Shown piece after piece: positions 1-47,616 of a DNA stretch of 64,000 bases. The stretch's first letter is position 1, and each line of letters opens with the position of its first letter. The position numbers were made by a program, and so were the translations under genes. The notes beneath the pieces are model-generated. The model was not told where the DNA came from and did no database searches. It saw nothing but the letters and a program-made list of their open reading frames with translations. The stretch covers positions 52,306 to 116,305 of the forward strand of contig WION01000164.1 in the NCBI GenBank assembly GCA_015039365.1, written 5' to 3'. Source of the stretch: Amanita rubescens. Taxonomy: Eukaryota > Basidiomycota > Agaricomycetes > Agaricales > Amanitaceae.

Positions 1-3000
1 GATCCTCTCCACATAGTCTTGTTGAGTCTTGAATTGGTCCAAAGCCTCCATGAATGATTCCAAAATTGGCTTGTTGATCCAAAATGATAGCTTTGCAATT
101 ATGACAATTGCTTGAACTTCATATTAGCATATATGTAGAGTGAAAGAATGGTATACTATATTACCAGCTAAGACTTGGCAGGCTGTAGGCTTATTACAGC
201 AAATCAATTATTCATCAATGGGAAAAACACAGCACGTACAGTTACTGAAAATTCTCCTGGTTGGTCTCCAAACAAGGAGAAAAGTTCAGGCTGACTATAA
301 GAAAGAGGAAATTTCCAATGTAATGCTGGACTTACACACTGTGTTAATTAATATTGAGATTAAAATATTCTGCAACTTGACAACACTCACCTGAAAAGCC
401 AGGAAAATCAAGGGTGTCAGGTGCAGTACATTCCAAGAGCCTCTCACAATCTATGGATGACAGTAAAATTAGAGAAAGCAACAATGGTCTAAGACTACTC
501 TGTTCTCACTTTCTGTAATGTTAATCAAGGACATGGATGAATTGGGATGTGTTGGAATTTCAGAAAATTGAGGCATTTCACACACTTCCTATGGGTAATG
601 TCAAGTGCCTCCTTGAAAGAAGGTTTAATATTACTTACATCCTGTTGGTCATAAATTAGATAGTACCATCATGCTTTCATAAATTTGAACAATACCACTC
701 ACTGCCTGAAGATTGTGGGGTGATGGGGACTACTTTTCAGAAAAGTGTACTGTCACTCACTGCCTATAGGTCATTGGGAAAACACATTGGTCACTGTATT
801 GTTGAAAATGTGCAACATATTCCTCACAGCCTGTTTATGGTTATAAAAGCTATAAAAAGGACATTGTTCAGAAAATGGGCAAGTTACATTACTCACTTTC
901 TGTTTATCATGGCAGAAAACATGATGAAATTGGCTTTCAGAACAATAGAAGATGGTGCTCACATCCTGATAGTCAAGATTGCGATAAGTTTCACAAAAGT
1001 GTCTAATGTCACTCACTGCCTGCAAGTTTATTATGCATGACATAAATAGTCTTTTCAAATACTCATATGCAATACCACTCACAAGCTGTTCATCATAGGA
1101 GAATATGTGATGCAACTACTTCAGCAAAGTGTGGAGAATGACTTACTTCCTGCTCATCAAGGAAGATATAGTTTTTGTGTGGCAACTAGTAGTATCACTC
1201 ACTTCCTATAATAGGTTATAGTAAGGGATGAAGTACACTCTCAGATGACTTTGCAATATGACTTACATGCTGTTGACCATAAGATTTGGTGACATCACTG
1301 TTTAGAACATTGGTTACTCACTTGCTGTTGGTCATAAGAGGAGATGTGATGAAACACTGTTTCATGAAACTTGCAATGGCCTCACCTTCTGTTAATTAAT
1401 TATAAAAGAAAGATATGATGAGATAACATCTCAGGAAATGAGGAATGACATTCACTCTCTGTTGATAGAAGGTGAAGAAGTGATTTACATGAGACAGATT
1501 TTGCAACAATTGCTCACTAGCTGTAATGATCCACACATAGGAAATATGTGATGAGATAACTTGTGAAAACATTTGCAACATCACTGACTTCCTGTCAATC
1601 AGGAAAAGATGATGAGACAACCTTGCAAAAAAGAACAAGATGTGATGTCACTCACTTCCTATTGATCAAGGGAGAGATGAAGCAGGTTTCAAGAGTTGAA
1701 ATGTTTCTCACATCCTATAAGTCACAGTAGAATATGTGATGAGATAGATTCCCAGGGATTTGTGCAATGCTCTACCCACATACTATCAGTCACATAAGAA
1801 AGTATGAGGCAGCTGCTTGAAAAAAGATGACATGTTACTCACTTCCTGTTGATTGCATAATATAATCAGATTGCATTTCAGAAATGCACAATGTCACTTA
1901 CTTGCTGTTGGTCATAGGCGCTTGAATCTGATTACATTACTGAGAAATGGTAGATTGTCACTCACTCGCTTTTCATCACAATAAGGATAGGATGCAACTG
2001 TTTATCCAAAATTTGCAATGTCACTCACATCCTATTAATCATTTGAAAAACAGAATGAGATTGCAGTTTGCAATATCACTCACCCACTATGGGTCATACA
2101 TAAGCAAGACTGCATTTCACAATGTGTAATCATACTCACTGCCTGTTAGAATATATCATGAAGAGATTGGCTCTCAAGGATATATTACTCACTCCCTGTT
2201 CAAGGGAAAATCAGAAAACTGTTTTCCAGAGAGCCACATAGTTTCACTTACATACTGTTGTTCATACTATGTGTATCAGATTTGACTAGGCAAGCACTTG
2301 ACTCACAATCTGTTGCTCACATGATTTTATGACAAAATAATGTATTATGACTCACTTTCTATTGGAAATGATGGTTCTATGAGATGTAATCAAGATGGTC
2401 AAACATGTTGTAGTCTTACTTGCTGTCAAGGGCTCAATTATCATGATGAAACTAATAGAAAAATGAAGACACTTGCTTTTCTCTTCTGTGACTGTTGATT
2501 GTGATGTGAGGAGTACCATTTCAACCTTGCAAGCAAGTGTAAATGCTACTTACACTCTATTTGTTGTGCAAAGAGATGTGACACAACTGTGCATTGATGT
2601 AGTTTCAACTTACTTCCTGCAAAAGAATGATGTGATGAAGCTGTCATATAGTTAACACCAAAATGATGCTTACAAACTGCACATCATAAAATTGGAGGCA
2701 TAAGACTGCCAGGTTCTTTAAAATTAAGGTTCTCACAAACTGTTGCTCACAACTCAAAATTGCACATTTGAAGATGGTAAGTTACCCACTTCCTAATGAT
2801 CATATTGCAAGATGTGGTGTGATTGCTGAAAGAGGAAAGATCAAATGGCTCACTCTCTGCATGATGTGGGGATGTGATGAGTTTTCCAATCATAAAAAGA
2901 GTGTGGTGTCAGTGTGTCACACACCTCCTAAGTTAATCATGGAATAGGAAGCAACAGTGAGTCTTGCTGTCAAGGAAATCTCACTAACTTTCTATTGATT

Positions 3001-5300
3001 TCAGGATGAGTATATGCATGTCCTGAGATTGTTTCAGAAGAAATGTAACCCACATCCTAGTTGCAAGGTGATAATCATGAGACATCCATGAAGATATGGA
3101 AGTCACTACTTACTGCCTGTTGTTGCACAACAAAATAATTAAATTGTATAATTGGGGAAATAATGACTGTATCATTCACTTGCTGTTCACAGGATGAAAG
3201 GATTAGGAGAGCTGTCACTCAGATAAAAATATAATGTACCAACTTTCTGTTGTTCACTGAATCAGGTCATACATAAATAAATTGTAATGTCACTCACTTT
3301 CTGCAGGCAAGAGGATTCAATTTCATGTAATTAAAATGGTAATAAAATGCTGCTCACTGCCTGATGATTTTTCAGTGTAATATGATTGAACGACATACAA
3401 AGCAAAGCAACTCACATCCTGTTTGTCATACAATGAAGGATAAGTTGTTGCCATAAATTGAGGATTGTTACCCACTGCCTGTTGAGAATGTTACAAGTTT
3501 GTTAAGCAGTAAATCATGGATCATTCACAAACTGTTGGCCATCAGACAAACCATGTCAAATGTATGCTGTTTCATTTGTATTTACCCACTTTGATCCCTA
3601 TTATTCAATTTTGTTGCAAAGTGAAAATATAACTTACTTTTATTTCATTTGAGGAAGCCTGAAGTATGGATAACCAAATTGCCATAAAAATGGATTGAAT
3701 AAACTGACAATCTGCTGCATAAGGTGTTTTTCAAGATAGCTGTAATTTTATAGAAATGACACTGACATTTCTATCCACCTGCTCTCAATTGAGTTTTCAA
3801 CTACATAAGTACTATTTGCAAAACATGCATACCCAGAAATGTGGGAATTTAGTGATAACCTCAACAATGATGGTATTCCATGCAGTAATGTCATCAAGCA
3901 CATGTCTGAGAAACATAAATATTCAGAAAACATATTATACATAAGTGATCCTCACTGAATTGCAGATTTAACACAGAGATCCAGATTATTCATCTGTGTT
4001 GAAACAAAAAGCTGGTGGATAATGTCATCATCAATTGCATCAGCAGTTGTCTGGGTCAATTCAGGACAGTTCTGCTCTGGTAAATCCATGTCTATTGAAC
4101 AGCATTATTGCTATTTGGGGAAAGAAATTTTGTTATTCTGACCTTCCAATCTCACATATCCATTGGGAGGGTATTGAGCATTTAATACTTTGGGAAGATA
4201 AACAGTCTGGAAAGTAGTTTCAGCATTCTCCCGGGCCTTACCCCACTTATCTTCAATCTCAACATCCAGCAAATTGACATATTCATTGATTATTTGACCA
4301 TCAAATTTGGTGAATACAGCTACCAAAGGAACTATAAAAATGCAAGTTGTTGGTCAGCACATGTCTTGCAGAAAGGAGGTATGAAAAAAAAACCAATTGA
4401 AGGCATCCTACCCAAACAAACATTGTGAGAGATAAATATCTCAGGACCTACCTTTGCCAGTCCCCCTGCTAAAGAACTCAAGCTCTGTAGGTAAAATGGG
4501 TCGAGGACTGTCCATTGGTATGCAATACCTACAAGAGGCTTGGTCAGCTAGTTTTATATACCGTAGCCAAAGCCAAAAATACCAAATTGCATGCAACTGA
4601 TTTTTCAGCTCAGTTTCTGCAGCTTTCTTTCCAATAAATTCCCAAGCCATCTCCAATTCCTCAGTTGCACCAGACTCAAAACCCTGAGAATCATGGAAGA
4701 TAAAGTTGCTTCCATTGTATGTAATTTGATGCTCAATGTCATGTATTCCTCTCTGCCATCATTAAATATGTTTGATTTATGTATCATCATTGAGTTTACC
4801 TCAACTGATGGAATCAAATGAGTCTTGGAAGGTACCATTTGATTACCTATAAGGAATTATATAGTTGAAAGAGAATAAGGAAGAGCATGATTCCTCACCA
4901 TCCTTGCCATATATAACAGGCTTTGTTCCCTTGGCTACAATACAAACCTTCTCCAAGATGGTTGTCTTGCCTGCATTAGCCCTTCCTATGACCAGAATAC
5001 GAAAGTATGGGCATTTGTATTGTTCCCTAAGGCCTGCAATATCTGCATTAGATATTCACAGGTCACATGTCAGTATTGTGTCAGTGCTGTCAAGATACAT
5101 ATTTTGACATACCAATTGGTGATGTAATACTAGTAATGTTTTCCATTGGTGCCAGAATACCAATAGTTTTAGAGACAGAGGTCAGAAATGCAATAGCAGT
5201 GTTTATCTTGAGAACTGAGTGCAATAATTGTAGACCTGTTAAGTGGTGGGGCAATCATTATGTGTGAGACTTAAAAGATCAACATGTTTGCACAGCTGGA
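1..5300 (-). CDS. G-domain P-loop GTPase gene with microexon array, copy 1 (3' end outside window)
   Basis: This minus-strand gene encodes a P-loop GTPase of the family common in Agaricomycetes. G1 (GRANAGKT) lies near 4960-5000, a DSQGF G3 motif near 4680, and a FTKFD G4 motif near 4290-4320, followed by VRLEG and a DIIHQLFVSTQ block at 3965-4080. About 0.4 kb later the coding sequence enters the array of three-base exons (3531 down to 448). A 51-base exon (290-240, starting PELFSLFGD) follows, then the C-terminal exon (NKPILESFMEALDQF), which is cut by the left edge. Compared with copy 2, the first exon region carries an insertion of about 47 nt (around 5205-5255), and a 2-nt indel occurs near 3725, so this copy may be damaged. 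I could not fix a start codon, nor the exon joins just before and just after the array. The function is unknown; proteins of this family are predicted nucleotide-binding proteins. Confidence 0.75.
448..3597 (-). other. Array of 51 three-base exons (copy 1)
   Basis: On the minus strand the pattern is AG, three bases, GT, repeated 51 times with exon starts 49-81 nt apart. Plus-strand starts of the triplets are 448, 510, 586, 639, 703, 761, 828, 897, 963, 1017, 1083, 1147, 1203, 1267, 1322, 1386, 1456, 1518, 1589, 1656, 1712, 1780, 1843, 1902, 1966, 2029, 2084, 2140, 2193, 2252, 2307, 2356, 2420, 2473, 2554, 2614, 2674, 2737, 2790, 2854, 2925, 2989, 3054, 3114, 3180, 3244, 3298, 3358, 3416, 3476 and 3529. 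An 8-nt exon (3590-3597) precedes the first triplet in transcription order. Donors are mostly GTGAGT or GTAAGT; acceptors resemble TATGACCAACAG. Joined in phase 0 there is no stop; both other frames contain stops. A further triplet, TGT, sits at 336-338. Splicing has not been shown here; it is inferred from the site pattern and from conservation in copy 2. Confidence 0.8.
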
Positions 5301-8390: not shown

Positions 8391-11300
8391 TTAAATGAAG
8401 TCAATGACCAGTTTGTAGAGGAATGAAACCAAAGCTTCTTTGCCATCTTCAGAAGGCATTGACTCTGATGTAATGTGAGTCTGGATCTTCTCCACATAGT
8501 CTTGTTGAGTCTTGAATTGGTCCAAAGCCTCCATGAATGATTCCAAAAATGGCTTGTTTATCCAAAATGATAGCTTTGCCATTATGACAATTGCTTGAAC
8601 TTCATGTTAGCATATACATAGAGTGAAAGAATGGTATACTATATTACCAGCTAAGACTTGGCAGGCTGTAGGCTTATTACAGGAAATCAATTCTTCATCA
8701 ATGGGAAAAACACAGCACGTACAGTTACTGAAAATTCTCCTGGTTGGTCTCCAAACAAGGAGAAAAGTTCAGGCTGACTATAAGAAAGAGGAAATTTCCA
8801 ATGTAATGCTGGACTTACACACTGTGTTAATTAATATTGAGATTAAAATATCCTGCAACTTGATAACACTTGCCTGAAAAGCCAGGAAAATCAAGGGTGT
8901 CAGGTGCAGTACATTCCAAGAGCCTCTTACAATCTATGGATGGCAGTAAAATTAGAGAAAGCAAAACAGTCTAAAACTACTGTTCTCACTGTCTGTAATG
9001 TCAATCAAAGACATGGATGTGTCACTGGGATTTCAGAAAATTGAGGCATTTCACACACTTCCTATAGGTTAACAGAATAATGTCAAAGGGCCTGTCTTAA
9101 AAAGGTTTAATATTACTTACTTCCTGTTGGTCATAAGATATGATAGCATGCTTTCATAAATTTAACAATACCACCCACTGCCTGGAGATTGTGGGACAAA
9201 ATGAGGACTACTTTTCAGAAAAGTGTTCTGTCACTCACTGCCTATAGGTCATTGGGAAAACCACATTGGGCACTGTATTGTTGAGAATATGCAACATATT
9301 ATCCCTCACTTCCTGTTTGTGGTTATCAAAGTTATAGAAAGGTCATTGTTCAGAGCATTATCACTCACATGCTGTTGGTTATGAAGGGGAATGTGATAAA
9401 AGAACTTCAAAATAATGTGCACTGTACTCACTACCTGTTGGCCATAACATAGATGAAGTTATAATAAAGAGAAAATGGGCAAGTTACATTACTCACTTCC
9501 TGTTATTGTGGCAGAAGACATGATGAAATTGCCTTTCAGAACAATAGAATATGGTGCTCACAGCCTGATAGTCAAGATGATATGTTGCAATAAGTTTCAC
9601 AAAAGTGTCTAATGCCACTCACTGCCTACAAGTTTATTATGCATGTCCGAATAGTTAGCCTTTCATACTCATGTACAATACCACTCACAAGCTGTTCATC
9701 ATATGTAGGAGAATATGTGATGTGACTACTTCAGCAAAGTGTGCAGAATGACTTACTTCCTGCTCATCAAATAGATATTTTGAGATTTAGTTTTGTGCAA
9801 TTAGTATCACTCACTTCCTGTAGGTTATAGTAAGGGATTCAGAGGTGCACTCTTAGAAAACTTTGCAACATGACTCACATGCTGTTGACCATAAGATTTG
9901 ATGACATCACAAACACTGGTTACTCACTTGCTGTTGGTCATAAGATGAGATGGTGATGAAACACTGTTTCATAAAATTTGCAATGATCTCACATTCTGTT
10001 AAGTAATTATAAAAAAATGATATGATGAGATAGCATTTCAGGAATGAGCAATGACATTCACTCTCTGTGAAGAAGTGATTTACACAAGACAGATTTTGCA
10101 ACAATCAGTGCTCACTAGCTGTAATCAGACACAAGAAATATGTGATGAGATGACTTGTGAAAACAACTGCAGCATCACTGACTTCCTGGAAAGATTTGAA
10201 TCTTTCAAAAAAACACAAGATGTGATACCACACACTTCCTATTGAGCAAGGAAGATGTGATGAAGCAGGTTTCAAGAAAAGTTGAAATGTTTCTCACATC
10301 CTATAAGTCACATTAGAATATGTGATGAGACAGATTTCCTGGGATTTGTGCAATGTTCTACTCACATACTATCAGTCACAGAAGAAGGTAGGCAGCTGTT
10401 TGAAAAAAGATGCAATGTTACTCACTTCCTGTCAATTGCATAATATAATCAGATTGCATTTCAGAAATGCACAATGTCACTTACTTCCTGTTGGTCATAG
10501 GAAACTTGAATCTGATTACATTGCTGAGAAATGTACATTGTCACTCACTCGCTTTTTGTCACAATAAGGATAGGATGCAACTATGCATCTGAAATTTCCA
10601 ATGACACTCACATTCTGATAATCATACAAAAAAGAATGACATTGCATTTTGCAAAATCACTCACCCACTGTTGGTCATAGGTAAGACTGCATTTGAAAAT
10701 GTGTAATATACTCACTGCCTGTTAGAAAATATCATGAAGAGATTGGCTCTCAAGGATATATTACTCACTCCCTGTTCAAGGGAAAATCAGAAAACTGTTT
10801 TCCAGAGAGCCATGCAGCTTCACTTACATACTGTTGTTCATACTATGTGTATCAGATATTTGAACTAGGCAAACTTGACTCACAATCTGTTGCTCGCATG
10901 ATTTGATGACAAAAGAATGTGCATCATCACTCACTTGCTATTGGCAGTGATAGGTCTATGAGATGTAATCATGATGGTGGAAAATGTTGTAGTCTTACAT
11001 GCTGTCAAGAGCTCAATTATCATGATGCAATTAATAGAAAAATGAAGACACTTGCTCTTTTCATCTCTGGCTGTTGATTGTAATATGAGGAGTGCCATTG
11101 CAACCCTGCAAGCAATGTTACTTACACTCTATTTGTTGTGCAATGAGATGTGACACAACTTCTGGGTCCATCAATGTAGTGTCAACTCACTTCCTACAAA
11201 AAGAATAATGTGATGAAGCTGTCATGTAGTTAATACCAAATAATGCTTACAAACTGCACATCATAAAATTGGAGGCATAAGACTGCCAAGTTCTTTGAAA

Positions 11301-13850
11301 TGTAAGATTCTCACATACTGTTGCTCAAAACTCAAGATTGCACATTTGAAGATGGTGTTACTCACTTCCTAATGACCATATTGCAAGATGTGATCTGATT
11401 GCTGGAAGAGGCAAGATCAAATGGCTCACTCTCTGCATGATACAGTGGGGATGTGATGAGCTTTCCACAACAAAAAAGAGTGTTGTGTCACACACCTCCT
11501 GTTAATCATGGAATAGGAAGTAACAAGTCTTGCTGTCAAAGAAATCTCACTAACTTTCTATTGATTTCAGGATGAGCTACACATGTGTATGTCCTGAGGT
11601 TGTTTCAGAAGAAGTGTAACCCACATCCTATTAGTTGCAAGGTGTTAATCATGAGACATCCATGAAGATATGTAAGTCACTACTTACTGCCTGTTGTTGC
11701 ACAACAAAATAATTAAATTGTATAATTGGAGAAAGAATGACTGTATCATTCACTTGCTGTTCATAGGATGAGAGGATTAGAAGAGCTGTCACTCAGATAA
11801 AAATATAATGTACCAACTTTCTGTTGTTTATTGAATCAGGTCATACATACATATACATCATAAATTATAATGTCACTCACTTTCTGCAGGCAAGAAGATT
11901 CAATTTCATGTAAGTAAAATGGTAATACAATGCTGCTCACTGCCTGACAATCTTTTAGTGTAACATGATTGAACCACATACAAAGCAGCTCACATCCTGT
12001 TTGTCATATGATAAGTTGCTACCATAAATTGAGGATTGTTACCCACTGCCTGTTGAGAATGTTACAAGTTTGTTAAGCAGTAAAGCATAGATCATTCACA
12101 AACTGTTGGCCATCAGACAAACCATGTCAAGTGTATGCTGGTTCATTTGTATCTACCCACTTTGATCCCTATTATTCAATTTTGATTGTTTCAAAGTGAA
12201 ATATAACTTACTTTTATTTCATTTGAGGAAGTCTGAAGTATGGATAACCAAATTGCCATAGAAATGGATTGAATAAACTGACCACCTGCTGCATAAGGTG
12301 TTTTAAGATAGCTGTCATTTTATAGAAATGACACTGACATTTCTGTCCACCTGTTCTCAATTGAGTTTTCCAACTCCATATTGAACTATTTGCAAAATAT
12401 GCATACCCAGAAATGTGGGAATTTAGTGATAACCTGAAGAATGAGGGTTTCCCATTCAGTGATGTCTTCAAATGCATGTCTGGGATTGGTAAACATTTGC
12501 ATGTGGTAATTTGTAAGTGATCCTCACTGACTCAAGTGCAGATTTAACACAGAGATCCAGATTATTCATCTGTGTTGAAACAAAAAGCTGGTGGATAATG
12601 TCATCATCAATTGCATCAGCAGTTGTCTGGGTCAATTCAGGACAGTTCTGCTCTGGTAAATCCATGTCTATTGAACAGCATTATCTCTATTTAGAGAATG
12701 ATATGTTGTTATTCTGACCTTCCAATCTCACATATCCTTTGGGAGGGTATTGAGCATTCAATACTTTGGGAAGATAAACAGTCTGGAAAGTAGTTTCAGC
12801 ATTCTCCCGGGCCTTACCCCACTTATCCTCAATCTCAACATCCAGCAAGTTGGCATATTCATTGATTATTTGACCATCAAATTTGGTGAATACAGCTACC
12901 AAAGGAGCTATAAAAATGCAAGTTGTTGGTCAGTATGTGTATTGCAGAAGGGAAGCATAAAAAAAAACCAAAGGCAACCCAAATAAACATTGTGAGAGAT
13001 AAATACCTTGGGACTTACCTTTGCCTGTCCCCCTGCTAAAGAACTCAAGCTCTGTAGGTAGAATGGGTCGAGGACTGTCCATGGGTATGCAATACCTACA
13101 AGAAGCTTGGTCAGCTAGTTTTATATATGATAGCCAAAGCCAAAAATACCAAATTGCATGCAACTGATTTTTCAGCTCAGTTTCTGCAGCTTTCTTTCCA
13201 ATAAATTCCCAAGCCATCTCCAATTCATCAGCTGCACCAGACTCAAAACCCTGAGAATCATGGAAGATAAAGTTGCTTCCATTGTATGTAATTTGATGCT
13301 CAATGTCATGTATACCTCTCTGTCATCATTAAATATGTTTGATTATGCATCATTGTTGAATTTACCTCAACTGATGGAATCAAATGAGTCTTGGAAGGTA
13401 TTATTTGATTACCTATAAGGAACTAACTAGTTGAAAGTGAATAAGGGAGGGCATACTTTCTCACCATCCTTGTCATAGATAACAGGCTTTGTTCCCTTGG
13501 CTACAATACAAACCTTCTCCAAGATGGTTGTCTTGCCTGCATTAGCCCTTCCTATGACCAGAATGCGAAAGTATGGGCATTTGTATCGTTCCCTAAGGCC
13601 TGCAATATCTGTGTCAGATGTTCACAGGTCACATGTCAGTATTGTGTCAATGCTGTCAAGATACATATTTTGATGTACCATTTGGTGATGTACTACTAGT
13701 AATGTTTTCCATTGCTGACATCATCTGGTGCCAGAATACCAATAGCTTTAGAGACAGAGGTCAGAAATGCAATAGCAGTGAGACAATCATCATATGTGAG
13801 GCTCAAAAGATCAACATGTTTGCACAGCTGAATTGGTCCTTACATGAGCT
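8391..13850 (-). CDS. G-domain P-loop GTPase gene with microexon array, copy 2 (complete in window)
   Basis: This minus-strand gene is the more intact copy. An upstream exon around 13850-13700 reads LCKHVDLLSLTYDDC and AIAFLTSVSKAIG. The next exon (about 13616-13465) carries FRILVIGRANAGKTTILEK, the G1/Walker A motif. An exon near 13310-13150 has HDSQGFESG (G3) and KNQLHAIW. After an intron, YCIPMDSPRPI lies near 13100-13080. The G4 exon (about 12905-12720) has VAVFTKFDGQI. Next comes DMDLPEQNCPELTQTTADA with LFVSTQMNNLDLCVK (12668-12545), then VITKFPHFW near 12425. The triplet-exon array (12102-8931) follows, then a 51-nt exon beginning PELFSLFGD and the C-terminal exon AKLSFWINKPFLESFM to the stop at 8391. 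The start codon and the junctions flanking the array are unresolved. The biochemical role is unknown; the G1, G3 and G4 motifs argue for nucleotide binding. Confidence 0.8.
8931..12168 (-). other. Array of 53 three-base exons (copy 2)
   Basis: The AG-NNN-GT pattern occurs 53 times without exception. Plus-strand triplet starts are 8931, 8990, 9059, 9121, 9179, 9239, 9310, 9369, 9432, 9497, 9562, 9623, 9689, 9757, 9815, 9879, 9928, 9993, 10062, 10116, 10183, 10236, 10298, 10366, 10426, 10485, 10549, 10612, 10665, 10716, 10769, 10828, 10884, 10935, 10999, 11052, 11126, 11191, 11251, 11315, 11366, 11430, 11496, 11555, 11625, 11688, 11754, 11818, 11881, 11941, 11994, 12047 and 12100. An 8-nt exon lies at 12161-12168. 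Spacing is 49-74 nt, so the introns are 46-71 nt. Read in minus-strand order the codons give 13 Glu, 8 Ala, 4 Gln, 3 each of Lys, Asp, Arg, His and Tyr, and no stop, which suits an amphipathic helix or coiled coil. Another triplet, TGT, is at 8819-8821. Confidence 0.82.
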
Positions 13851-29851: not shown

Positions 29852-30587
29852 ACGTATCTCCAACGATACTGACCGAAGAACGTTATGTTACTGCCCCTGA
29901 TGTACAGTACAAAGATTCAAAATTAAATATCGAATGCATTATGTACGAACTCAGAGGATTGGAACATAAGTGGAGAAACAAAAAAATAACAACAAAAAAA
30001 GATAAATTAGTAACGTGGCAAGGACCGTGGATGGTGAGAAGGATATGGGAACAACCGGAAGAGGTGGCAGTACAAACCCTAAAACAGTGGGTACATAAGA
30101 CGAGAGAAAACGAAGCGACGGCGGAGACGGTGAATGTGCTGAATGGAATGACGGAAGAGAACGCGTTGTGGCACCTGCAAAACCTTAAATGGAAAGGACG
30201 TTACATCCAAGGGAAAGGAAAAAACCAGATGACGGTTAGCGGCACAGTCACCACCTTAGATACTTTCCAAAGGCACAAGACGGAGATCCTCATAGACTCG
30301 GGATGTACCGGATCCTGCGTTAATGAAAATTTTGTACGGAAACACAATATTAACACGCGACGTCTAGACCGACCCATCCCCGTGTACAACGCCGACGGTA
30401 CGCCTAACTTAGGAGGAGCATTAAAAGAGATGGTACAATTGAGGATGCAAATCGGAGCTCACTACGAAGTCTTCGAATTCGGAGTATCAACGCTCGGAAA
30501 GGTCAACATATTCTTAGGACACGATTGGTTAAAACATCATAACCCGATTGTGGATTGGAAGAAGGGCTCACTCCTCATGAAACGCTG
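29852..30587 (+). CDS. Element 2 Pol, N-terminal part with protease (split by element 3)
   Basis: This reading frame is open from 29770, overlapping gag by 82 nt in the -1 frame. It contains an aspartic protease: LIDSGCTGSCVNENF (catalytic DSG at about 30295) and FLGHDWLKHHNPIVDW. It stops being Pol at 30587, where element 3 is inserted between bases of a cysteine codon. The rest of Pol resumes at 38431. Confidence 0.88.
30583..30587 (+). repeat. Target-site duplication CGCTG (left) of element 3
   Basis: CGCTG precedes the left LTR and recurs at 38426-38430 after the right LTR. Confidence 0.92.
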
Positions 30588-31073
30588 TGTTAAAGTTATC
30601 TTATCTAATCATATAAGATAACGTATATCTTATCTTATCTCATATAAGATAATACATCATATCTTATCCTATAGATTAGGATATACAGATTAGATGTACA
30701 TACATGCGTATATGTATTCACATACATATATACACGTACATATACATACATAGGATACTGGAATATCCTATAGTCGCTTGCGTCATCCCATTACTGTGGT
30801 AGACGCGTCATAGCTGTGCTAGACGTCATATCATACGTCATGCACAGCTCTTCCTCTATTTACTATACATTGTACTTATTAGGATACTAGTAGTATATAA
30901 GACTACCTGTACGTAGGTACAAATAAGAACCTTCCTTCTCCTCTTACCACCACATCCTATATCCATAGGATAGTGAGTTATCGTTCGAGGTCGTCACCGC
31001 CACTCTACACTCCACTCTAAGTAAGTATTCACTTTAATACTTAGACGCTGCGCTGCTGGGCGTATCTTCGTCA
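30588..31073 (+). repeat. Left LTR of Copia-like element 3 (486 bp)
   Basis: TGTTAAAG...CTTCGTCA, the same length as 37940-38425, with no difference that I noticed. This implies a very young insertion. The LTR itself contains perfect short hairpins, for example 30954-30971 (ATCCTAT/ATAGGAT) and 31022-31043 (TAAGTAT/ATACTTA). Confidence 0.95.
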
Positions 31074-32103
31074 GGTTATGGGCCCCGACATGGTATTGCT
31101 TGCATCACCATCGCCTCCAGGCATGTTACCATGCAAGATGTGTGAACAGGTATAGTATTGTGCGGGTCGGAGACCTGAGTGGCAATCCGTCAATTTAACT
31201 GAGTTCTTGTACCTGACATACGAGCTTATGACATGCGCCCGGACCCTAGGGCTTTAGGGGGATCTCCTTGCACCCAGGGATAAGGGTACCACCTATGTTT
31301 CTCAAGGCTGGCATGGCAACCTTGACCCCCACGGAGTTATACTTGCCCTCCGTGATGTGACTGGGGTATTCATGCACGATATTCCCATTATAAGGCCCTT
31401 AGTGCCTTTAGTTACCTGTATGTAGATCATATGGCCCGTAGTAACTTTCACAAAGTATAAAGGTCGTGCTGGGGTCCCATTGTGGACCATACACGCAGAC
31501 TATTAGGCGTCCACTCCTAGAGAGCGCCTTAGATTAGCCGTTGGCTCTGCTCAAAAGGCATCCACGTATACTTTCATATTGTTACTGGGAGTGCTTATAA
31601 AGGTGGTCACGGACGGTTTATGGACCGGACACCTTTCATTTTCCAAAGACAACTGGTACCTTTTGGGACCAGGCAGTTGCCGCAGGCGCACTGCAGTCCG
31701 CGGACCTTATGCATGTCATACTCGTTTACAGGTCAGGCACACAAGTCTGGTACATGTTCCTCGGATCGATCCTGGTGCTAGGCATTATCATGCTTGGCTG
31801 TAGCTCATAACGCTGCACGCAAGGTCGTTGTCGTATTCGTTATGACACCCTCGCCTATGAAGTTGTTGTCGTTTATGTAATGACACCTTCATTAATAAAA
31901 TCCTTAAAATAGATATAAATCATTGAATTTATAAATAATCCATCAAACGATCAATTGATTTCATCTCAATCAATCGTTCCATCATCAAGAAGCAAGAAAT
32001 AACATTTCTCGCTCACCCATTCCAATACAAGATCTACGCATCTTGTTCACCAACATTTCCATAAGGTTTTATATAAATAGAAACCTTTATCGACATTCTT
32101 GTC
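31074..32103 (+). other. Element 3 leader
   Basis: About 1 kb of non-coding leader. Immediately after the LTR is GGTTATGGGCCCC, possibly part of the primer-binding site; I could not match it to a tRNA. It is rich in short inverted repeats such as GCATG-TTAC-CATGC near 31114, and two TATGACACCT-type repeats near 31840-31890. Confidence 0.6.
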
Positions 32104-33252
32104 ATGTCTTCTTTTACCAAAGAAGAAGACAGCGCTTTATGTTCCCTTGTCACCGAATTACAAGGAGACAATTATCGTGCCTGGGCACGACAAATAACGG
32201 CATACTTTCAGATCTCAAATCTGATGGTATTCATGTGTCCCGTTATCCCCAATGCAATCCCTGCTCACCTCAAAGCAGTAATTGCGCCGATCACTGCCAC
32301 CAATAAGGCAGCAATCATCATACAAGCTGATGAGCTTGTACAAAACGAGAAGGCGTTACACGCCATTAAGCTCAGATTGTCCTTTACAATCTTTGAGCTT
32401 TATCAACACGTTTACAATGCAAGACTTCTATGGATGTTCTTGCAAGAACGTTACAAAGATGATTCACCAGCAATCCTTGACGGATCACTGGACAAAATAG
32501 ATCATGATCGATCTATAAATAAAATCATCACTCGTTATAGACACATAGCAGCACAGGGACATCAATTCCCGGCTGCTCATCTAAATAAAGCACTTACGAC
32601 CATCAGGGCTGTTCCATTAAAATGGATCAACCAAACAGCGGCTACATCATCCGTTACCGCTATCAATACGAATTACTCTAGCCCTAAGGCAGTTCGTTCA
32701 GGAAACACTGCCACACAAGTTGGACCGATCAGAGTCCAGCAACTTGCTAGTGAAATTCGTTCGGCATGGTCGTCACGGCATAAAGCTATAAACCAATTAT
32801 CTCCGTCGACGCAAGACCCTAACTTGCATACGGAAAATTGTTTAGCTAATGCCTCCTTAACAAACAAAGGCAAAAGCCGCTGCAGATGCTCGCCGCATCC
32901 ACAGCCTACACATTTGCGCTGGGAAGACTTTAAAAATAGTAGCAAGCCTGATTATATCAGGGGAGGATCTCCACTATTAGTCAAACAGCCCGAATCTGAT
33001 CCGGAATCAGATTCCACACATGATTCATTTAAATCATGTAAATCAAATGTTTCTACGCCTTCACCTTTGTCACACGAGCCTTTGACAGACTCGTTCAACA
33101 CAAGAATAACAAATTCCCAGGAGGAATTTTATGATGCTCATGAAGATTTCGAGCGTCATTATGGAAATTTCATGGCTATGAATAGCTATGATCAATGGGT
33201 AGAAGAACAATATAGCATAGACTTAGATTATTTCTGGAAGAAATATATGTAA
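32104..33252 (+). CDS. Element 3 Gag-like protein (382 aa)
   Basis: The only substantial ORF of element 3. Residues about 15-110 resemble the Copia Gag/UBN2 region (LQGDNYRAWARQITAYFQI, LWMFLQERYKDDS). The C-terminal half is Ser/Asn-rich and ends in an acidic, tyrosine-containing tail. No zinc knuckle, protease, integrase or reverse transcriptase follows. If made, it could package RNA while enzymes come from another Copia element. Perfect hairpins run through the coding sequence too, for example 32992-33014 and 33019-33038. Confidence 0.75.
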   Translation: MSSFTKEEDSALCSLVTELQGDNYRAWARQITAYFQISNLMVFMCPVIPNAIPAHLKAVIAPITATNKAAIIIQADELVQNEKALHAIKLRLSFTIFELYQHVYNARLLWMFLQERYKDDSPAILDGSLDKIDHDRSINKIITRYRHIAAQGHQFPAAHLNKALTTIRAVPLKWINQTAATSSVTAINTNYSSPKAVRSGNTATQVGPIRVQQLASEIRSAWSSRHKAINQLSPSTQDPNLHTENCLANASLTNKGKSRCRCSPHPQPTHLRWEDFKNSSKPDYIRGGSPLLVKQPESDPESDSTHDSFKSCKSNVSTPSPLSHEPLTDSFNTRITNSQEEFYDAHEDFERHYGNFMAMNSYDQWVEEQYSIDLDYFWKKYM

Positions 33253-36200
33253 TATATAAATTGTCATCAAAACAAGAGTATCGTGAAGGATCACTCCTTA
33301 TAAATCCGATTACTTGTCATACAATTTATATTCAAAATAAGGAAATCGTGTAGGCGTATGCCTTGCAACCCCGATTACTTATAAATAAAGGTCTTTCTGG
33401 TGGTATTAGCAAGGATCATTATCATTGCCAAAATATACCGCGTTCAAGGGAATTTCGATCACTTGAAGAAAGATCATCACGCTTGTCATCATATACAAGC
33501 ATCAACACATATTATCTTCGTCAAATTCAGAAATATCTATAATGTCTACACTATAAAAACAATATCTTTAAAAGCTCTCCACATATGCAAACCGATGTTT
33601 ATAGCCTATAGACGGCTATAATCTATTTGCAGATAACAGTAATGTGTTACCTTTGAGAAAGGTTCCTTGCCGTTGAAATAGCACGGTCTTGAAAACGTCT
33701 CATAATATGGTTTCCTACACTTGAGAAGGCTCCTTGCTGTTGAAATAGCACAGTCTTGAAAGTATCTCATAACACTGTAGTCGCAAAAGCAGTTTCAAAC
33801 TGCTGAACATTATCTGTTGGAGATAACAAATTTCTTGGTATAAACACCGTCATTCTTTAACGACGTTAGCAAGGATTTATCATCATTGCCAGAATACTGT
33901 CGCATACAAGGGAATTTCGATCACTTGTATAAGAATAGACTCCTATGCTTGTCCTTACAAGCATCTATAAACGTCCAGAGTATTTTTGTACTCAACCTAT
34001 AAATTGAATTGTACGGCGGCGCCATGCGCTCATCCCCTTTTCATATTTAAAATAGGTTTTCCAATAACAGGACAGACGTAATTAAAATACCTCGAAATAA
34101 TTCTTATAGCTTTAAGAATTGTGGATTATAATTCTAAATGATTATCTATAGGAACCAGATCATCCTTGAGTGAAATACATGTACCATGACCAAATACGTT
34201 GACCAACGTTATTATGTTGGATAATGTATTGTGTGAAACACAAGAACGGTTACATCTTTTTATAAAGATGATAAATTGACGAAATCATTGATTTCTTTAA
34301 ATACATGAAGATGATTTTTATAAATCATCACATGTTAAAATAAGAATACTGTTCATATCACATCAATCTATATGTGATAATAGATCATGTCAAAAATATA
34401 CATGATACTATCAGGCTAAATTACGCAATATCAATCCCTGTCTTGATTGAGGGGGAATCATTGCAAATAAACAAGCCATTACGACTTGTATAAATGACCA
34501 ATCAAAACAAGTATTCGATATAACTTGTAAACAAATACAATCATGGATGCGTATTAGAAATAGGCACATATTGTATATATATTATGGTTGCGTATTAAAA
34601 ATAGGCCCATAATAATGGTCATCAACTGTATTAGAGGAGGAAGCTCCCTCGATAATATACAGATGCCTGAACACGAACATAATATGTATTGGAGTTTTAT
34701 CCCCGTCTATTGTATAGAGAAGGCTCCTTGCCGTTGAAACTTATACGGTCTTGAAAGCGTCTCGTCTTTACAATATGACATTACACTCCTGACAAATATC
34801 CTAGTCAGGAACGTGTATTATATGGAATGCCAGGTTAATGCATATCTCAAATAAGCCTGTCTTATGGCTTATCGCAAATAACCTCACATATCCTCTCCAT
34901 ACATATAACAGTATTTCTTTATAAGAATCAATGGTAGCTTAAATCAAAAAGAAATAGTTATGTTAAATCTTGCGCCAGTTCCTTTAAAAATACAGATTCC
35001 CAAATATCGTTCATATGATATTACGGTTGAATTGTTGGAATACATTTAGTTCCTTGCACAGATCTTGGCCCTCAAAAGCTGAAGATAGGAACACCTTGCA
35101 TACAATTCAACACCCTCTTTAATTAACTCTAGTTCTTGGTCTCATCCGAACAATGGAGAATTTCCTTACACAAGTTTTGACGGTTTTCAGGTTGGTTAGC
35201 AATATTTATATATTGTGGATCGCTTGGGGATACAGCAGACCCAATACTGCTACGAAAATAAACTTGTACAGGTCAATCTTTGGATAGGTAGCAATATTTA
35301 TATATTGTGGGTTATTCAGGGACACAGCAGACACAATACTGCTATGACTTCGAAATATCGTTATGATCTTCCTGGCGGTATTAGCAAGGACATATTGTCA
35401 TTGCCAAAATATACCGTATATGAATGAGCTTCGGCCAACTCATAAGGAGGATCTTTATAAATAACGAATTTCGGTTTAATGTTGTCATTATACATTGAAC
35501 ATCAAAAAGGATATTCAAAATCATTCAACGAGACCTCCCTGATAATGTTCTATACTCTTATTGCATCTGGATAATGCATAAAGATAAAATAGAACTAAGG
35601 AAGAACAAGAATTAACAGAGTTAAGAGGACATTACTTGCCAACGGACTACACGTAACAGAGGAATAATCCTTGTTTAAGGATTAATATAGGCTGTACTGA
35701 AAAGGAAACCTATATCGGATAACGTCGCAGTTATACCTTCCCAGTAGACGTGTTCATGTTGAATATATCGTCCAAAAAAGATAGTCATTGACACTTAAAT
35801 GACTTAGAGGTCAAAATCTCGTTCATACGAGATATTATATAAGTGTTTGTTCTTCTATACAAACACTTATAATTATGCTTGTCGTCAATACAAGTAAATC
35901 CTCTTCGTCGTAAGAATCTATATCAAAAATAGATTCAATATGCTATAATGGGGTGGCGCCTGCCTTGCGCAAATCCCCAAATATACAAGTATGAGTGAAT
36001 GCAGAACGTCGATCGTTCTTGGATCCTCAATTAAAACTTGTCATGACAACGGTCGTATCCCTGTGGGTGTAGACCTTTAAAGTCATATTCGTATCTTGTA
36101 TCCATACACAAGGTACAATAAATATAGCATATATATAATACAAGAATAAACTTCTTGTACACAGTGTCTAACAAAGGATTACATCATTAATGATCGTCGG

Positions 36201-37939
36201 GTACGGCAGACACAATACTGCCAGCAAATTATCTTTATATTAAGATAAAATGCGCCGGGCACTTATAGCAGTTCTTACTGCTGATCATCTATGGTAAAAC
36301 CCTTTTATAATGATTACCAAGATATATTGCAAATGTGGATGACCACCACGTATAAGTCAAGTAGGGAATCATATCTGTATGAGCATCCAGTAAAATGTAT
36401 CTGGATTCACTTACACGATTAAAACAAGAAAGCTTATCACATATAAGCTCAAGTTTAATAATCGTCACACATGCTCAGGAATTGGATAATGATGAAGTTC
36501 ATTTCGTTATTACGAAATCAGGAGATTCGTCTCCCCGCTGGTGTTGTGCGTTCCTACCAAAATAGGGATATATGGAATCACAACCAAATAACAATCCTTT
36601 ACAAAAGTGATTATAAAGGATTTAATGATATGCAAATCATCATACCAGACGGATTATCATCATTTACAAAAGACAAGATATACACACATATCTATAGAAG
36701 GGAACAGTTGTTATTCAATAGCAGACGGGTCAATATGCTTATACAAGCATAAGTCCTTTAAAGACCCAAGGACTTCGATCTGCTGGATAACGAAGATATT
36801 CTTTAAGACACATGGTTGAACTCTTTATCGAAATTTAAAAAGGAGTTTTTATCGATATAACAGAGATGTAAACCATGATGTATAAGAATTATCTAGGCAA
36901 CCGTCTATAACATAATTCGCTTGTCGTTATACTTGTCTTTACAAGGACAAGCAATTATATTAGACCACAATACAATTATACTTGTCATCACAAGTAAGAA
37001 TCGTCAAGCGTGCGACTTGTCGATCAAGTGAACACGCCACATCATATTCTCGTATTGCTGTGCAAAGAGAATATATACTCCTTTACCTATTAAGGTGCTA
37101 GTCACCTTTACACCATATAAGGCGTTGGACGCCTTTAAATATAATAGGAGAACACACGAGTCAGCGTACATAATCAGGAACTTGTAAAGAAACAAGGAAT
37201 GATTATTGCACTCGTCACAGCATACGAGCAAAGAGTATTTGCAAGGGAGGAAGCTCCCCTTGTAGAGATACTATACTCGTCTAAATAGTTTCATTTAGGA
37301 AGACATAGTCAAGTTTTTACTTGACAATGCGACATATACACACTCGCATATCCATCAGAGGATTCTTTTCACACAAAGAATCATCGTCATATATCTCGCT
37401 ATTTACATAGCTTGATATTTATGCAAGTTGTTAAACGTTATCGTTTACCTGCCAAAAATATTCATTTAGCACTTAAGGATATATTCTTATCCTTTATTAA
37501 ACAAAGTAATAAATCATAGTCAGAGACAGCGAAGGCAGTAGACCAAGCCCCTTCTCGATTAAATATGATTTCACACACTTTGTAAGGCTTGAAGCCTGGG
37601 GGTGCTTTTATAATGGATATTATTAATATGACAGGAAACTCGATTTTTGATAAATCGATTCAAACAATATACGTCATTGTATTGGCTTTTCGACAAAGTC
37701 ATATCCTATACCTTTAGGATCAAACAATGATAAATATTGTATAACGTATACAACAAGCATTATAGGAATATCAAAGAAATATATAATACAAGGGATTAAG
37801 GTGAAAGCAGCATATAGTCTGGATCCCCGTACTTGTACACGAAACGAGAGATCTTCCGTGAAGACTTTTCAAGTCTTGCAATTCCGGTGACTCGTATAAA
37901 GATATTTCATATATTCCTGGATAACTTAGCGAGGGGGTG
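33253..37939 (+). other. Element 3 long non-coding internal region tiled with hairpins
   Basis: About 4.7 kb with no ORF above roughly 90 codons and no pol motif. It is dense in perfect stem-loops, roughly one every 40-80 nt. Examples: 34253-34270, 34281-34295, 34310-34329, 35816-35833, 35841-35868, 35914-35936, 37092-37108, 37119-37135, 37475-37494 and 37640-37658. Short direct repeats also recur (AGCAAGGAT...ATTGCCA; GGTTCCTTGCCGTTGAAA near 33660, 33730 and 34725). A purine-rich tract GAGGGGGTG just before 37940 is the likely polypurine tract. The layout suits a LARD-like, non-autonomous retrotransposon. Confidence 0.75.
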
Positions 37940-38425
37940 TGTTAAAGTTATCTTATCTAATCATATAAGATAACGTATATCTTATCTTATCTCATATAAG
38001 ATAATACATCATATCTTATCCTATAGATTAGGATATACAGATTAGATGTACATACATGCGTATATGTATTCACATACATATATACACGTACATATACATA
38101 CATAGGATACTGGAATATCCTATAGTCGCTTGCGTCATCCCATTACTGTGGTAGACGCGTCATAGCTGTGCTAGACGTCATATCATACGTCATGCACAGC
38201 TCTTCCTCTATTTACTATACATTGTACTTATTAGGATACTAGTAGTATATAAGACTACCTGTACGTAGGTACAAATAAGAACCTTCCTTCTCCTCTTACC
38301 ACCACATCCTATATCCATAGGATAGTGAGTTATCGTTCGAGGTCGTCACCGCCACTCTACACTCCACTCTAAGTAAGTATTCACTTTAATACTTAGACGC
38401 TGCGCTGCTGGGCGTATCTTCGTCA
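37940..38425 (+). repeat. Right LTR of Copia-like element 3 (486 bp)
   Basis: Matches 30588-31073 over the full length. Followed by CGCTG, the right target-site duplication (38426-38430). Confidence 0.95.
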
Positions 38426-45498: not shown

Positions 45499-47616
45499 AT
45501 GGGTCACAGAGATGTTGCTGAACTGCTGCTTGAAAGTGGAGCAGATGTACATGGACGGTCCAAAAATTTACTTGAGACTGCATCACGTGGTGGTCACAAA
45601 GACATCATTGAGCTGCTACTTGAGAGAGGAGCAGATGTGAATGAAAAGGGATACATATATGGAAATGCTCTCCAGGCTGCATCTGCAGGTGTTGTTGAGA
45701 GAAAGGATATTGTTGAGCTTCTGCTTGACAGAGGAGCAAATATGAATCCACAGGGTGGATGTTATAAAAATGCCCTCCAGGCTGCATTGCTTCATGGTCA
45801 TAAGAACATCATTGAGCTTTTACTTACAAGAGGAGCAGACATCAGCATAACAGGAGGACATTATGGAAGTGCTCTCCAGATTGCATCATTGAACAATAAC
45901 CAGGGTCTCATTGAGTTGCTACTTGGCAGAAAAGCTGATGTGAATGCACAAGGAGGATATTTTGGAAATGCTCTCCAGATTGCATCATATGCTGGTCACA
46001 AAGATACTATTGAACTGCTGTTCAGAAGAGGTGCAAATGTAAATGCAGGAGGAGGGTATTATGGAAATGCTTTACAAGCTGCAGCATATACTGGTCACAA
46101 GGACATTGTTGAATTGCTGCTTAACAGAGGTGCAGAAGTGAATCTGCAGGGAGGCAAATATGGTAATGCTCTTCAAGCTGCATCATGTCAAGGTGATGAG
46201 GACATTGTTGAGCTGCTGCTTGTTAAAGGAGCAAAGGTGGATATGCAGGGAGGATATTATGGTAATGCCCTCCAGGCTGCATCATGTGGGAAATACAAAA
46301 ATGTTCTTGAAAACAAGGGCATTGTTGAGCTGCTTCTTACAAAAGGAGTAGATGTGAATGCACAAGGTGGAACATTTGGAAATGCTCTCCAAGCTGCATC
46401 GTCCATGGGAAACAAGAAAATTGTTGAAATGTTGGTTGCAAATGGAGCAGAGGTAAATGCACAGGGAGGTGAATATGGAAATGCTCTCCATGCTGCATCA
46501 TATCAGGGTCATAAGGAGATTGTTGAACTGTTGATTGCAAATGGGGCAAAGGTTGATGTACATGGAGGAAAGCTTGGAAATGCTCTTCAAGCTGCAGTAT
46601 CTCTTGGTCACAAGAACATTGTTGAATTACTGATAGCAACTGGAGCAGAAGTGAATGTACAAGGAGGATGGCTTGGAAGTGCTCTTCAAGCAGCATGTTC
46701 AAGTAATCAGAAGGAGATCATTGAGCTGCTGCTTCACAAAGGAGCAGAAGTGAATGCACAAGGGGGGAAATTTGGAAATGCACTTCAAGCAGCATGTTGT
46801 AATGCTCAGAAGGAGATTATTGAGCTGCTGATTTACAGAGGAGCAGAAGTAAATGCACAAGGGGGGGAGTATGGAAATGCTCTCCAGGCTGCATTGGCAA
46901 ATGGAAAAAAGGATCTCATTCAAATGCTGCTTGACATTGGGGCAGATGTAAATGCACAGGGAGGTCACTATGGAAATGCTCTTCAGATTGCATCAAATAG
47001 AGGTAGCAAGGACATTGTTGAGCTGCTACTTGACAGGGGGGCAGACATAAATGCACAAGGAGGATATTATGGAAATGCTCTTCAGGCTGTATCAGGATGT
47101 TCAGGGAATGCATTTTCAGGAAATCTTATAACTAAGACGCTGCTTGAAAGAGGAGCAAATGTGCATATGCATGGAGGTCATTTTGGTACTGCTCTCCAAG
47201 CTGCATCTGCTTGTGGTCACATGGACATTGCTAAATTACTACTAGCCAGTGGAGCAGATGTGAATGATTGTGGAGGATACTATGGCAATGCTCTGCAAGC
47301 TGCATCATTTGAAGGTCATAAAGGAATTGTTGAATTGCTGCTTAGAGCAGGGGCTAATGCCAAGTCCAGTCAAACTGTGCAAGTAGTATGGTGTGATGGA
47401 TACAATGATGATGATGATGATGATGTGACATCTGATTTAAGCAGTGCTTTACAAGCTGCATCACTCAGAGGACATAAAAGAATTGTGAAATTGATTCTTG
47501 ATAACAACACTGTCACACATGAACACCTTGAAGCTGCTTTTACTGTTTCCTCAGACAGAGGTTATCAAGATATTGTAGACCTGCTGCTGGAACACAAAGC
47601 CAAGCTGATGCAATAG
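45499..47616 (+). CDS. Ankyrin-repeat protein, 5'-truncated (705 aa ORF)
   Basis: Roughly 20 consecutive ankyrin repeats of about 33-36 residues with the consensus GNALQAAS--GHKDIVELLL-RGADVNAQGG. The repeats are strikingly uniform in protein and DNA. A DDDDDD tract near residue 640 interrupts the last repeats. The frame opens inside a repeat (GHRDVAELLLESGAD) exactly where the upstream repeat element ends, so the N-terminal domains are missing; the start used here is only the first Met-like position. It converges with a NACHT-ankyrin gene (51366-48197), and their ankyrin segments share wording, so this may be the 3' half of a related STAND gene. Ankyrin domains bind partners or ligands in such receptors. 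Confidence 0.82.
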   Translation: MGHRDVAELLLESGADVHGRSKNLLETASRGGHKDIIELLLERGADVNEKGYIYGNALQAASAGVVERKDIVELLLDRGANMNPQGGCYKNALQAALLHGHKNIIELLLTRGADISITGGHYGSALQIASLNNNQGLIELLLGRKADVNAQGGYFGNALQIASYAGHKDTIELLFRRGANVNAGGGYYGNALQAAAYTGHKDIVELLLNRGAEVNLQGGKYGNALQAASCQGDEDIVELLLVKGAKVDMQGGYYGNALQAASCGKYKNVLENKGIVELLLTKGVDVNAQGGTFGNALQAASSMGNKKIVEMLVANGAEVNAQGGEYGNALHAASYQGHKEIVELLIANGAKVDVHGGKLGNALQAAVSLGHKNIVELLIATGAEVNVQGGWLGSALQAACSSNQKEIIELLLHKGAEVNAQGGKFGNALQAACCNAQKEIIELLIYRGAEVNAQGGEYGNALQAALANGKKDLIQMLLDIGADVNAQGGHYGNALQIASNRGSKDIVELLLDRGADINAQGGYYGNALQAVSGCSGNAFSGNLITKTLLERGANVHMHGGHFGTALQAASACGHMDIAKLLLASGADVNDCGGYYGNALQAASFEGHKGIVELLLRAGANAKSSQTVQVVWCDGYNDDDDDDVTSDLSSALQAASLRGHKRIVKLILDNNTVTHEHLEAAFTVSSDRGYQDIVDLLLEHKAKLMQ

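Follow-up and report, generated by a model that had tools for sequence, protein, structure and literature searches.

Apparent arrays of single-codon exons in a GTPase gene family of the fungus Amanita rubescens

Gene structure at the locus

We examined a 64,000-nucleotide (nt) stretch of the Amanita rubescens genome (contig WION01000164.1, positions 52,306 to 116,305), called the window below, in which two related P-loop GTPase genes lie on the minus strand. In one of them, gene A, 53 triplets follow one another at short intervals (array A), and a similar run (array B) occupies the paralogous gene B. With a probability of roughly 0.9, we regard these triplets as genuine exons of a single codon each, belonging to a spliceosomal gene. 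The features are listed here in window positions; the proteins P0001, P0002 and P0088, named in the list, are taken up further on.

13526..13570, minus strand: P-loop stretch FRILVIGRANAGKTT of the GTPase, gene A, inside a longer exon
13150..13315, minus strand: GTPase exon GIHDIEH...HAIW, gene A (ends placed by eye from the sequence)
13019..13095, minus strand: GTPase exon YCIPMDSPRP...GTGK, gene A (ends placed by eye)
12719..12907, minus strand: GTPase exon PLVAVFTKFDG...YVRLE, gene A, the query of the genome search (150 scored matches)
12532..12667, minus strand: exon DMDLPEQNCPEL...KSALE, gene A (end placed by eye)
12407..12479, minus strand: exon HAFEDITEWETLILQVITKFPHFW, gene A (end placed by eye)
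12212..12232, minus strand: 21-nt exon TSSNEIK directly 5' of array A; TSSNEIK is identical in P0001
8931..12159, minus strand: array A, 53 single-codon exons, WFADAKKQADKEREYFES then HQIYGAWNREEYDEELRNQHEELAAEVHEAAEETI, each triplet with AG on its 5' side and GT on its 3' side
11056..11070, minus strand: 15-nt exon PEMKR (CCAGAGATGAAAAGA) with gcaagt as its GC donor, following the 18th single-codon exon of array A and preceding the 19th, from a gapless 63-residue alignment with P0001
8819..8821, minus strand: TGT, probably one more single-codon exon, separated from array A by a 109-nt intron, at the position of F in IFGPLL of P0088
8723..8773, minus strand: first normal exon 3' of array A, PELFSLFGDQPGEFSVT, resembling LPELFSVFG of P0002
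8391..8593, minus strand: last coding exon of gene A, AIVIMAKLSFWINKPF...VIDFI-stop
4144..4329, minus strand: gene B counterpart of the GTPase exon at 12719..12907, 97% identical (genome position C73:56449-56634)
448..3588, minus strand: array B of the paralogous gene, 51 single-codon exons, WFADAKKQADKEREFFES then QKIYGAWDRQEYDEELRKQHEELADKAAADEKI
2491-2477, minus strand: 15-nt exon SQKRK within array B, with a GC donor

The upstream exons of gene A carry the P-loop GTPase signatures GRANAGKTT and TKFD. In Pfam, P0001 and P0002 match MMR_HSR1 below the threshold, and P0088 and the further protein P0117 gave no match; a profile search of PDB returned five weak matches, which are P-loop GTPases. 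P0002 and P0004 are 89% identical overall, yet their array segments are unlike in both length and sequence. The NCBI-annotated A. rubescens proteins, among those listed, mostly cover little over half of the query.

The introns of array A are all in phase 0 and measure 46-68 nt, excluding the gap that holds the 15-nt exon. An earlier note on this DNA had proposed the run of single-codon exons, with 46-71 nt between them and a putatively helical segment as their product. When the 53 triplets are joined, phase 0 is open and both shifted frames meet stops, as that note had stated; we count one stop in +1 and seven in +2. Its total of 53 AG/GT-bracketed triplets on the minus strand also stands, with two changes of membership. 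The TGG at 12159-12157, which it took as closing a 12-nt exon, stands alone as a single-codon exon, because P0001 reads NEIK-W without an insert. The CAA at 11054, counted there as a single-codon exon, is better read inside the 15-nt GC-donor exon at 11070-11056, since the alignment with P0001 is then gapless over 63 residues. The note placed the array inside a GTPase gene with recognisable exons on both sides, which are indeed GTPase exons, and missed the second, homologous array at 3588-448. The large gene family, the occasional GC donors and the young arrays with identical introns and variable codons, all described below, also go beyond it.

Chance and the parsing of arrays

Chains of bracketed triplets were compared with shuffled sequence. 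In the stretch of array A, the longest relaxed AG-NNN-GT chain has 35 members, against a maximum of 3 in 200 dinucleotide shuffles. With strict donors, the minus-strand chain of three-nt exons is 15 members long, and none of 500 shuffles gave more than 1; strict chains with other exon lengths from 0 to 30 nt, on both strands of the whole window, reach 2 at the longest. A parser free to choose any exon length up to 40 nt found 53 three-nt exons in array A, 52 in the core alone.

A dynamic-programming parse of 16 array stretches, with exon length again free to 40 nt, assigned 3 nt to 816 of 863 core exons. These stretches include the homologue of array A on contig C737 and two from neighbouring parts of contig C3. 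The core is the longest run of three-nt exons in which no two neighbours are separated by more than one other exon, a definition that somewhat favours 3 nt. The parser admits GC as well as GT donors; odd exons such as CATGCAA, which a GT-only parse had produced, were false and are explained by GC donors. In 15 array stretches, the most frequent donors are GTGAGT (509) and GTAAGT (75), GCAAGT occurs 9 times, and the commonest acceptor is CAACAG (442). The 762 triplets of these 15 stretches contain no stop codon, against 43.1 to be expected if the base composition at each codon position alone set their number.

Transcript-like sequences with the codons joined

P0088 is a protein of 285 amino acids from a 1,099-nt JGI contig; at every one of 60 residues it agrees with the GTPase exon found at six A. 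rubescens loci. On genomic contig C67, 27 consecutive single-codon exons, one of them with a GC donor, read WFETAKNRAKSYSHEDHYFAFGYFRGA, and the same run stands unbroken and unchanged in P0088. The exon placement here is that of the exon list; a spliced alignment by residues alone put a few exons (K-S-Y-S-H) in the wrong place. A further stretch of P0088, HAQQR, corresponds to the last 12 nt of a C67 intron followed by its CGA exon, and therefore an upstream 3' splice site was used there. With residues 120-285 of P0088 as query, the matches were P0088 itself and P0121, the latter resembling the C-terminal part. The genome yielded no uninterrupted copy of the array peptide of P0088, although the search did locate the next exon, FGPLLSLFGD, at 9 places. 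Nor was an uninterrupted copy of the window array peptide found in the genome, in a search that had no positive control of its own; the search with the P0088 peptide, which was of the same kind, recovered the 3' exon of its query. Another protein, P0117, comes from a contig of 1,143 nt and corresponds to contig C106 in three segments at 92-98%; about 36 residues of P0117 have their place in the unread 1.86-kilobase (kb) gap that separates these segments.

The protein P0001 has 378 amino acids, and its longest contig measures 1,494 nt; in the genome, it matches the array B gene best (84%). The residues TSSNEIKWFAEAKKQADGEREYFQYNPKKIHEQFAAWDREDYDKSQTKQHSELERQVKKAADE of P0001 form a gapless alignment of 63 positions with array A, 37 of them identical (30/56 in the array part). 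The array core, with CAA in place of the 15-nt exon, scores 154, and none of 500 shuffles of its codon order exceeded 58. After ...AADE, P0001 ends VCDIAQFSECQSHLNYCVT. We compared the tail VCDIAQFSECQSH with 847 parsed introns in three frames, and the best match was the array B intron GTGTGTGAAATGCCTCAATTTTCTGAAAT read in frame 0. This intron follows the corresponding GAA codon, and its counterpart in array A ranks tenth. Because the tail best fits an intron at this very position, P0001 looks like a partly spliced transcript, with the upstream single-codon introns removed and one intron kept. The tails of P0009, P0045 and P0008, matched to the parsed introns, gave no clear retained intron. 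The earlier note's proposal that the triplets are real exons of a GTPase gene is thus supported. One half of what the note named as a refutation, the lack of any homologous protein with the joined-triplet peptide, does not hold, as both P0001 and P0088 contain joined-triplet peptides, P0088 exactly so over 27 codons.

The gene family in the genome

Counts for the A. rubescens genome (75.7 megabases, 786 contigs; G000) include duplicate haplotype contigs. The 150 scored matches to the GTPase exon of gene A came from 238 candidates. Runs of at least six consecutive three-nt exons are present at 27 of the 30 GTPase loci that were fetched, which extend just 1.5 kb downstream. The intron motif CAACAG-NNN-GTGAGTGACATTGCACATTTTG has 2,431 matches in the genome at up to three mismatches (1,245 forward and 1,186 reverse), and the reversed-pattern control has 0. 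Among these matches, 100 listed places form 19 clusters, 18 of which have a GTPase-family match upstream on the same strand, while the nineteenth lies at a contig end. The single-codon stretches often exceed 50 codons, with an intron of about 60 nt after nearly every codon.

On contig C3, arrays (L011-L014, C3:125557-136901) follow the nearest listed GTPase exon (C3 115099) on its downstream side, at distances of up to 20 kb. Parts alone of this array were read, and it could reach about 300 codons if it is continuous. Locus L070 (C8:75600-82500) holds 76 three-nt exons for a peptide rich in Leu, Gln, Glu and Arg, and 49 of its 77 introns are of a 53-nt form, against the 62-nt form common elsewhere; the 53-nt form is an intron variant that has spread through one array. 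P0107 and P0120, two more distant JGI proteins, have low-complexity segments, HLEYHHREEEEYHHHHH and EELREELERNNEEEKEEKE, at or near the array position, which suggests that similar arrays may exist outside Amanita.

Codon choice in the arrays is far from that of normal exons. Of the array codons in the 15 stretches, 93% have A or T in the third position. Relative to 4,700 codons from 87 normal exon segments of the same family, the arrays use GGA for 60/63 Gly codons (44/165 in normal exons) and CAA for 67/68 Gln codons (113/252), whereas TTA or TTG make up 1/75 Leu codons (227/437) and TTC 0/53 Phe codons (82/249). Codons with GT inside or AG at the end are rare, which may reflect selection against false splice sites. 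A final C is scarce as well, and a final G is scarce even where no AG would result; the avoidance of false splice sites would not fully account for this.

Variation between array copies

Arrays A and B are identical at 40 of 51 codons, and array A exceeds array B by two units. Their 47 corresponding intron interiors agree at 92% of aligned bases, or at 84% if gaps are included; introns that do not correspond reach 75% and 58% by these two measures. In length, 32 of the 47 introns differ, 24 of these 32 by something other than a multiple of 3; the 51 paired exons are all triplets, and GT/GC...AG is kept in all 47 introns.

Other copies change differently along their length. Loci L069, L076 and L077 have near-identical GTPase exons and share most codons near the GTPase part (WFEQ-GKK...), after which almost all codons differ. 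Their distal parts contain dozens of identical 62-nt introns between variable codons. Among 16 locus pairs compared, L076 and L077 differ by 27/115 in the triplets and 31/3428 in the introns, and L069 and L077 by 22/113 and 28/3267, with gaps of approximately whole units. The other 14 pairs mostly have few triplet changes (for example 0/84, 0/129 and 0/48); L063 and L064 differ by 4/39, and L003 and L008 by 4/127 with many gaps. The young arrays have a repeat unit of about 65 base pairs (bp), with block duplications. A tandem repeat is clear in the distal parts of L069, L075, L076 and L077, and Tandem Repeats Finder reports none at the window arrays.

In L075, a block of 18 units, anchored by rare intron variants, is present twice. 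Between its two copies, the triplets have 11/54 changes and the introns 3/1119 (Fisher 2e-13, with intron bases taken as 1,116); the triplet changes fall in 5 of the 18 codons, and in three of these no base is kept. Across unit pairs that have the same rare intron, the 5' codon is shared in 17/34, against a background of 11.6%, and the 3' codon in 12/34. The L075 block and the rare-intron pairs together fit the duplication of units, combined with the exchange of codons between units that have identical introns.

Interpretation and alternatives

If the triplets are exons, the precursor messenger RNA (pre-mRNA) of such a gene would have a short, ordinary phase-0 intron, mostly of the form GTGAGT...CAACAG in the parsed arrays, after nearly every codon of one segment. 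Each intron would be removed by intron definition, and its removal would fuse a lone codon to the neighbouring exon, so that the splice sites are presumably no longer crowded; the order in which the introns are spliced is likewise inferred. The resulting protein would be a P-loop GTPase whose variable segment lies between the G domain and a conserved C-terminal part. Next to the G domain, the introns of an array have diverged and its codons are conserved, which is what the window shows; some arrays also possess a young distal part with dozens of identical introns and varied codons.

The identical introns may be recombination arms through which codons are duplicated and exchanged, a proposal to which we give an even chance. 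As homology arms, they would allow unequal exchange and non-allelic gene conversion, the latter a possible cause of the changes seen, to duplicate, delete and swap units of a codon plus its intron in frame. Once the introns have diverged, exchange would stop and the codons would become fixed. Whether the single codon is in this way a unit of both gene structure and recombination is, in our estimate, evenly balanced. Such a diversification by codon cassettes would let one codon be gained, lost or swapped in frame, and any subset of codons could be skipped without loss of frame. The array segment is perhaps involved in nonself recognition, a guess from the size and variability of the family.

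The alternative with the best claim, though we think it unlikely, is that the excess of codon over intron change reflects strong diversifying selection on point mutations, or a mutator targeted to triplets, with no exchange of units. The distal codons of L069 would suit such a process, since they are mostly CAA, CTA and CGA and differ at the middle base alone. Elsewhere, the changes are larger: of the 17 unequal 5' codon pairs next to a shared rare intron, 13 have changes at two or three positions, and the L075 block contains three replacements of a whole triplet.

It is improbable, in our judgement, that mobile introns (introners) were inserted between the codons of an existing exon in place of unit duplication. 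As introners would, identical introns flank different codons and belong to one multicopy family with 2,431 motif matches. Random insertion would not be expected to hold phase 0 and 3-nt spacing across dozens of exons, and the units with a rare intron share their 5' codon in half of the pairs (17/34). The codon usage of the arrays, so unlike that of normal exons, also speaks against insertion into an existing exon, and the 53-nt form in 49/77 L070 introns suggests local copying.

The possibility that the whole array is excised as one large intron or skipped, leaving the triplets unused, we consider very remote. The annotated A. rubescens models, among those listed, mostly end before the array, and P0053 joins PHYW almost directly to LFALFTLFGG; the 27 joined codons of P0088 contradict it for a C67-type gene, and the P0117 residues at the genomic gap and the 762 stop-free triplets also count against it. 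Equally hard to credit is that the joined peptides in the databases come from intronless or retroposed copies and that the intron-riddled copies are non-functional, intron-invaded relics: P0088 and P0001 are uninterrupted open reading frames, and parsed exons in L069 and L076 break the frame, but no uninterrupted copy was detected in the genome, P0001 appears to enter an intron at the corresponding position, and P0088 includes the last 12 nt of an intron.

Several observations weigh against the reading that we prefer, that of single-codon exons which are exchanged between units. The joined-codon evidence comes from sequences other than the window gene. P0001 belongs to a different gene or species, its GTPase part being 83-84% identical to the array B gene and its C737 homologue. 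P0088 leaves C67 after HG (PEPTKGI versus E-PA-NRN), and two later codons differ; past the run of 27 codons, the two agree at HG, F, P, G, R, H, E, F, G, K, E and F and differ between, and P0088 therefore comes from another allele or strain. The JGI contigs of P0088 and P0001 are presumed to be complementary DNA (cDNA) because their open reading frames run through intron positions. A 494-residue query assembled end to end from pieces of nine hypervariable array peptides met no protein at E <=0.001 among 7,998 scored candidates, so the splicing of the youngest arrays is putative. In the parse, 27/863 core exons are not multiples of 3, and four longer exons hold stops; we take most of these to be probable misreadings in which the end of an intron was parsed as exon, as in TCTCTCATGGACAG-GGA. 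Loci L069 (C13:580000-586500) and L076 (C254:11500-17500) hold exons of 2 or 4 nt (AATT, CA and CATT; GAAG and CTTC) that leave the frame unrestored in the parse, with one stop near the end of L076, and for that reason these copies may be broken or otherwise spliced.

Other observations against it come from the comparisons between copies. Purifying selection on the triplets of arrays A and B was sought and not found: the triplets have changed at roughly the intron rate (12/153 bases, with about 8% in the introns), and each of the 11 codon differences is nonsynonymous, with none synonymous, so these two copies show no such selection. Between array A and its C737 homologue, the substitutions (1/159 in triplets, 48/3290 in introns) do not differ significantly; there are 14 insertions or deletions in introns and none in a triplet. 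A clear triplet excess appears in just two of the 16 locus pairs, L076-L077 and L069-L077, and the alignment of L069, L076 and L077 by position is uncertain because the units are so alike. The rare-intron pairs are not independent, one L070 intron variant supplying 10 of the 34, and the 3' codon is shared in just 12 of them.

Other features of the window

Elsewhere in the window, two identical 300-nt direct repeats, 7,352 nt apart (30586-38237), have the look of a young long terminal repeat retrotransposon. The plus strand has an open reading frame of 705 amino acids (45499-47616) with 99-bp tandem repeats, which we assume to be of an ankyrin-like type. A GC-richer minisatellite with units of 35, 69 and 132 bp lies at 63196-63931.

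Significance and comparison with known systems

If the arrays are what they appear to be, the spliceosome copes with dozens of successive three-nt exons, which bears on the recognition of exons and introns and on the minimum size of an exon. Introns could serve as recombination spacers at the resolution of a codon. A class of protein sequence that gene finders miss would be exposed, in a family with at least 150 GTPase-exon matches in this one genome. The arrays would also be a natural test of intron definition, splicing order and intron origin. The earlier note had called such arrays undescribed, and we too found no paper on them in the open-access literature, judged by titles and the openings of abstracts, with bioRxiv and most subscription journals outside this scope.

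The hypervariable region of the sea urchin 185/333 genes is made of shuffled elements, which are longer coding elements; in the arrays, the shuffled unit would be a single codon with its intron. The 185/333 genes and other hypervariable immune gene families form large and diverse families, as do the array genes (PMC1988830).

Microexons are exons of 1-30 nt, and exons of 1 nt are described in Arabidopsis APC11 and Fusarium CYP621A (PMC12940212, PMC8831610). Microexons are very short, adjoin ordinary spliceosomal introns, are required for the reading frame and are often missed by annotation, all of which is true of the arrays (PMC12940212, PMC8831610). The array exons fall within this size range, 816 of the 863 core exons being 3 nt, and in the 15 stretches they have GT-AG or GC-AG flanks. 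Inclusion in mature messenger RNA (mRNA) is seen in the 27 joined exons of P0088, if P0088 is cDNA as presumed, for a gene of the C67 type, which is not the window gene. In the cases described there, microexons number one or a few per gene (PMC12940212, PMC8831610), in contrast to more than 50 successive one-codon exons here.

The introner-like elements of fungi and algae form a many-copy family of near-identical short introns, as do the array introns (PMC4457414); the 2,431 motif matches are many near-identical introns in one genome. Unlike introner-like elements, the array introns, where placed, are tandem copies in one gene family at a spacing of one codon. The young arrays also resemble coding minisatellites, with tandem units (here of about 65 bp) and block duplications. 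In the arrays, unlike in coding minisatellites, the repeated part is the intron, and the mRNA keeps 3 of every 65 bp, those 3 being variable.

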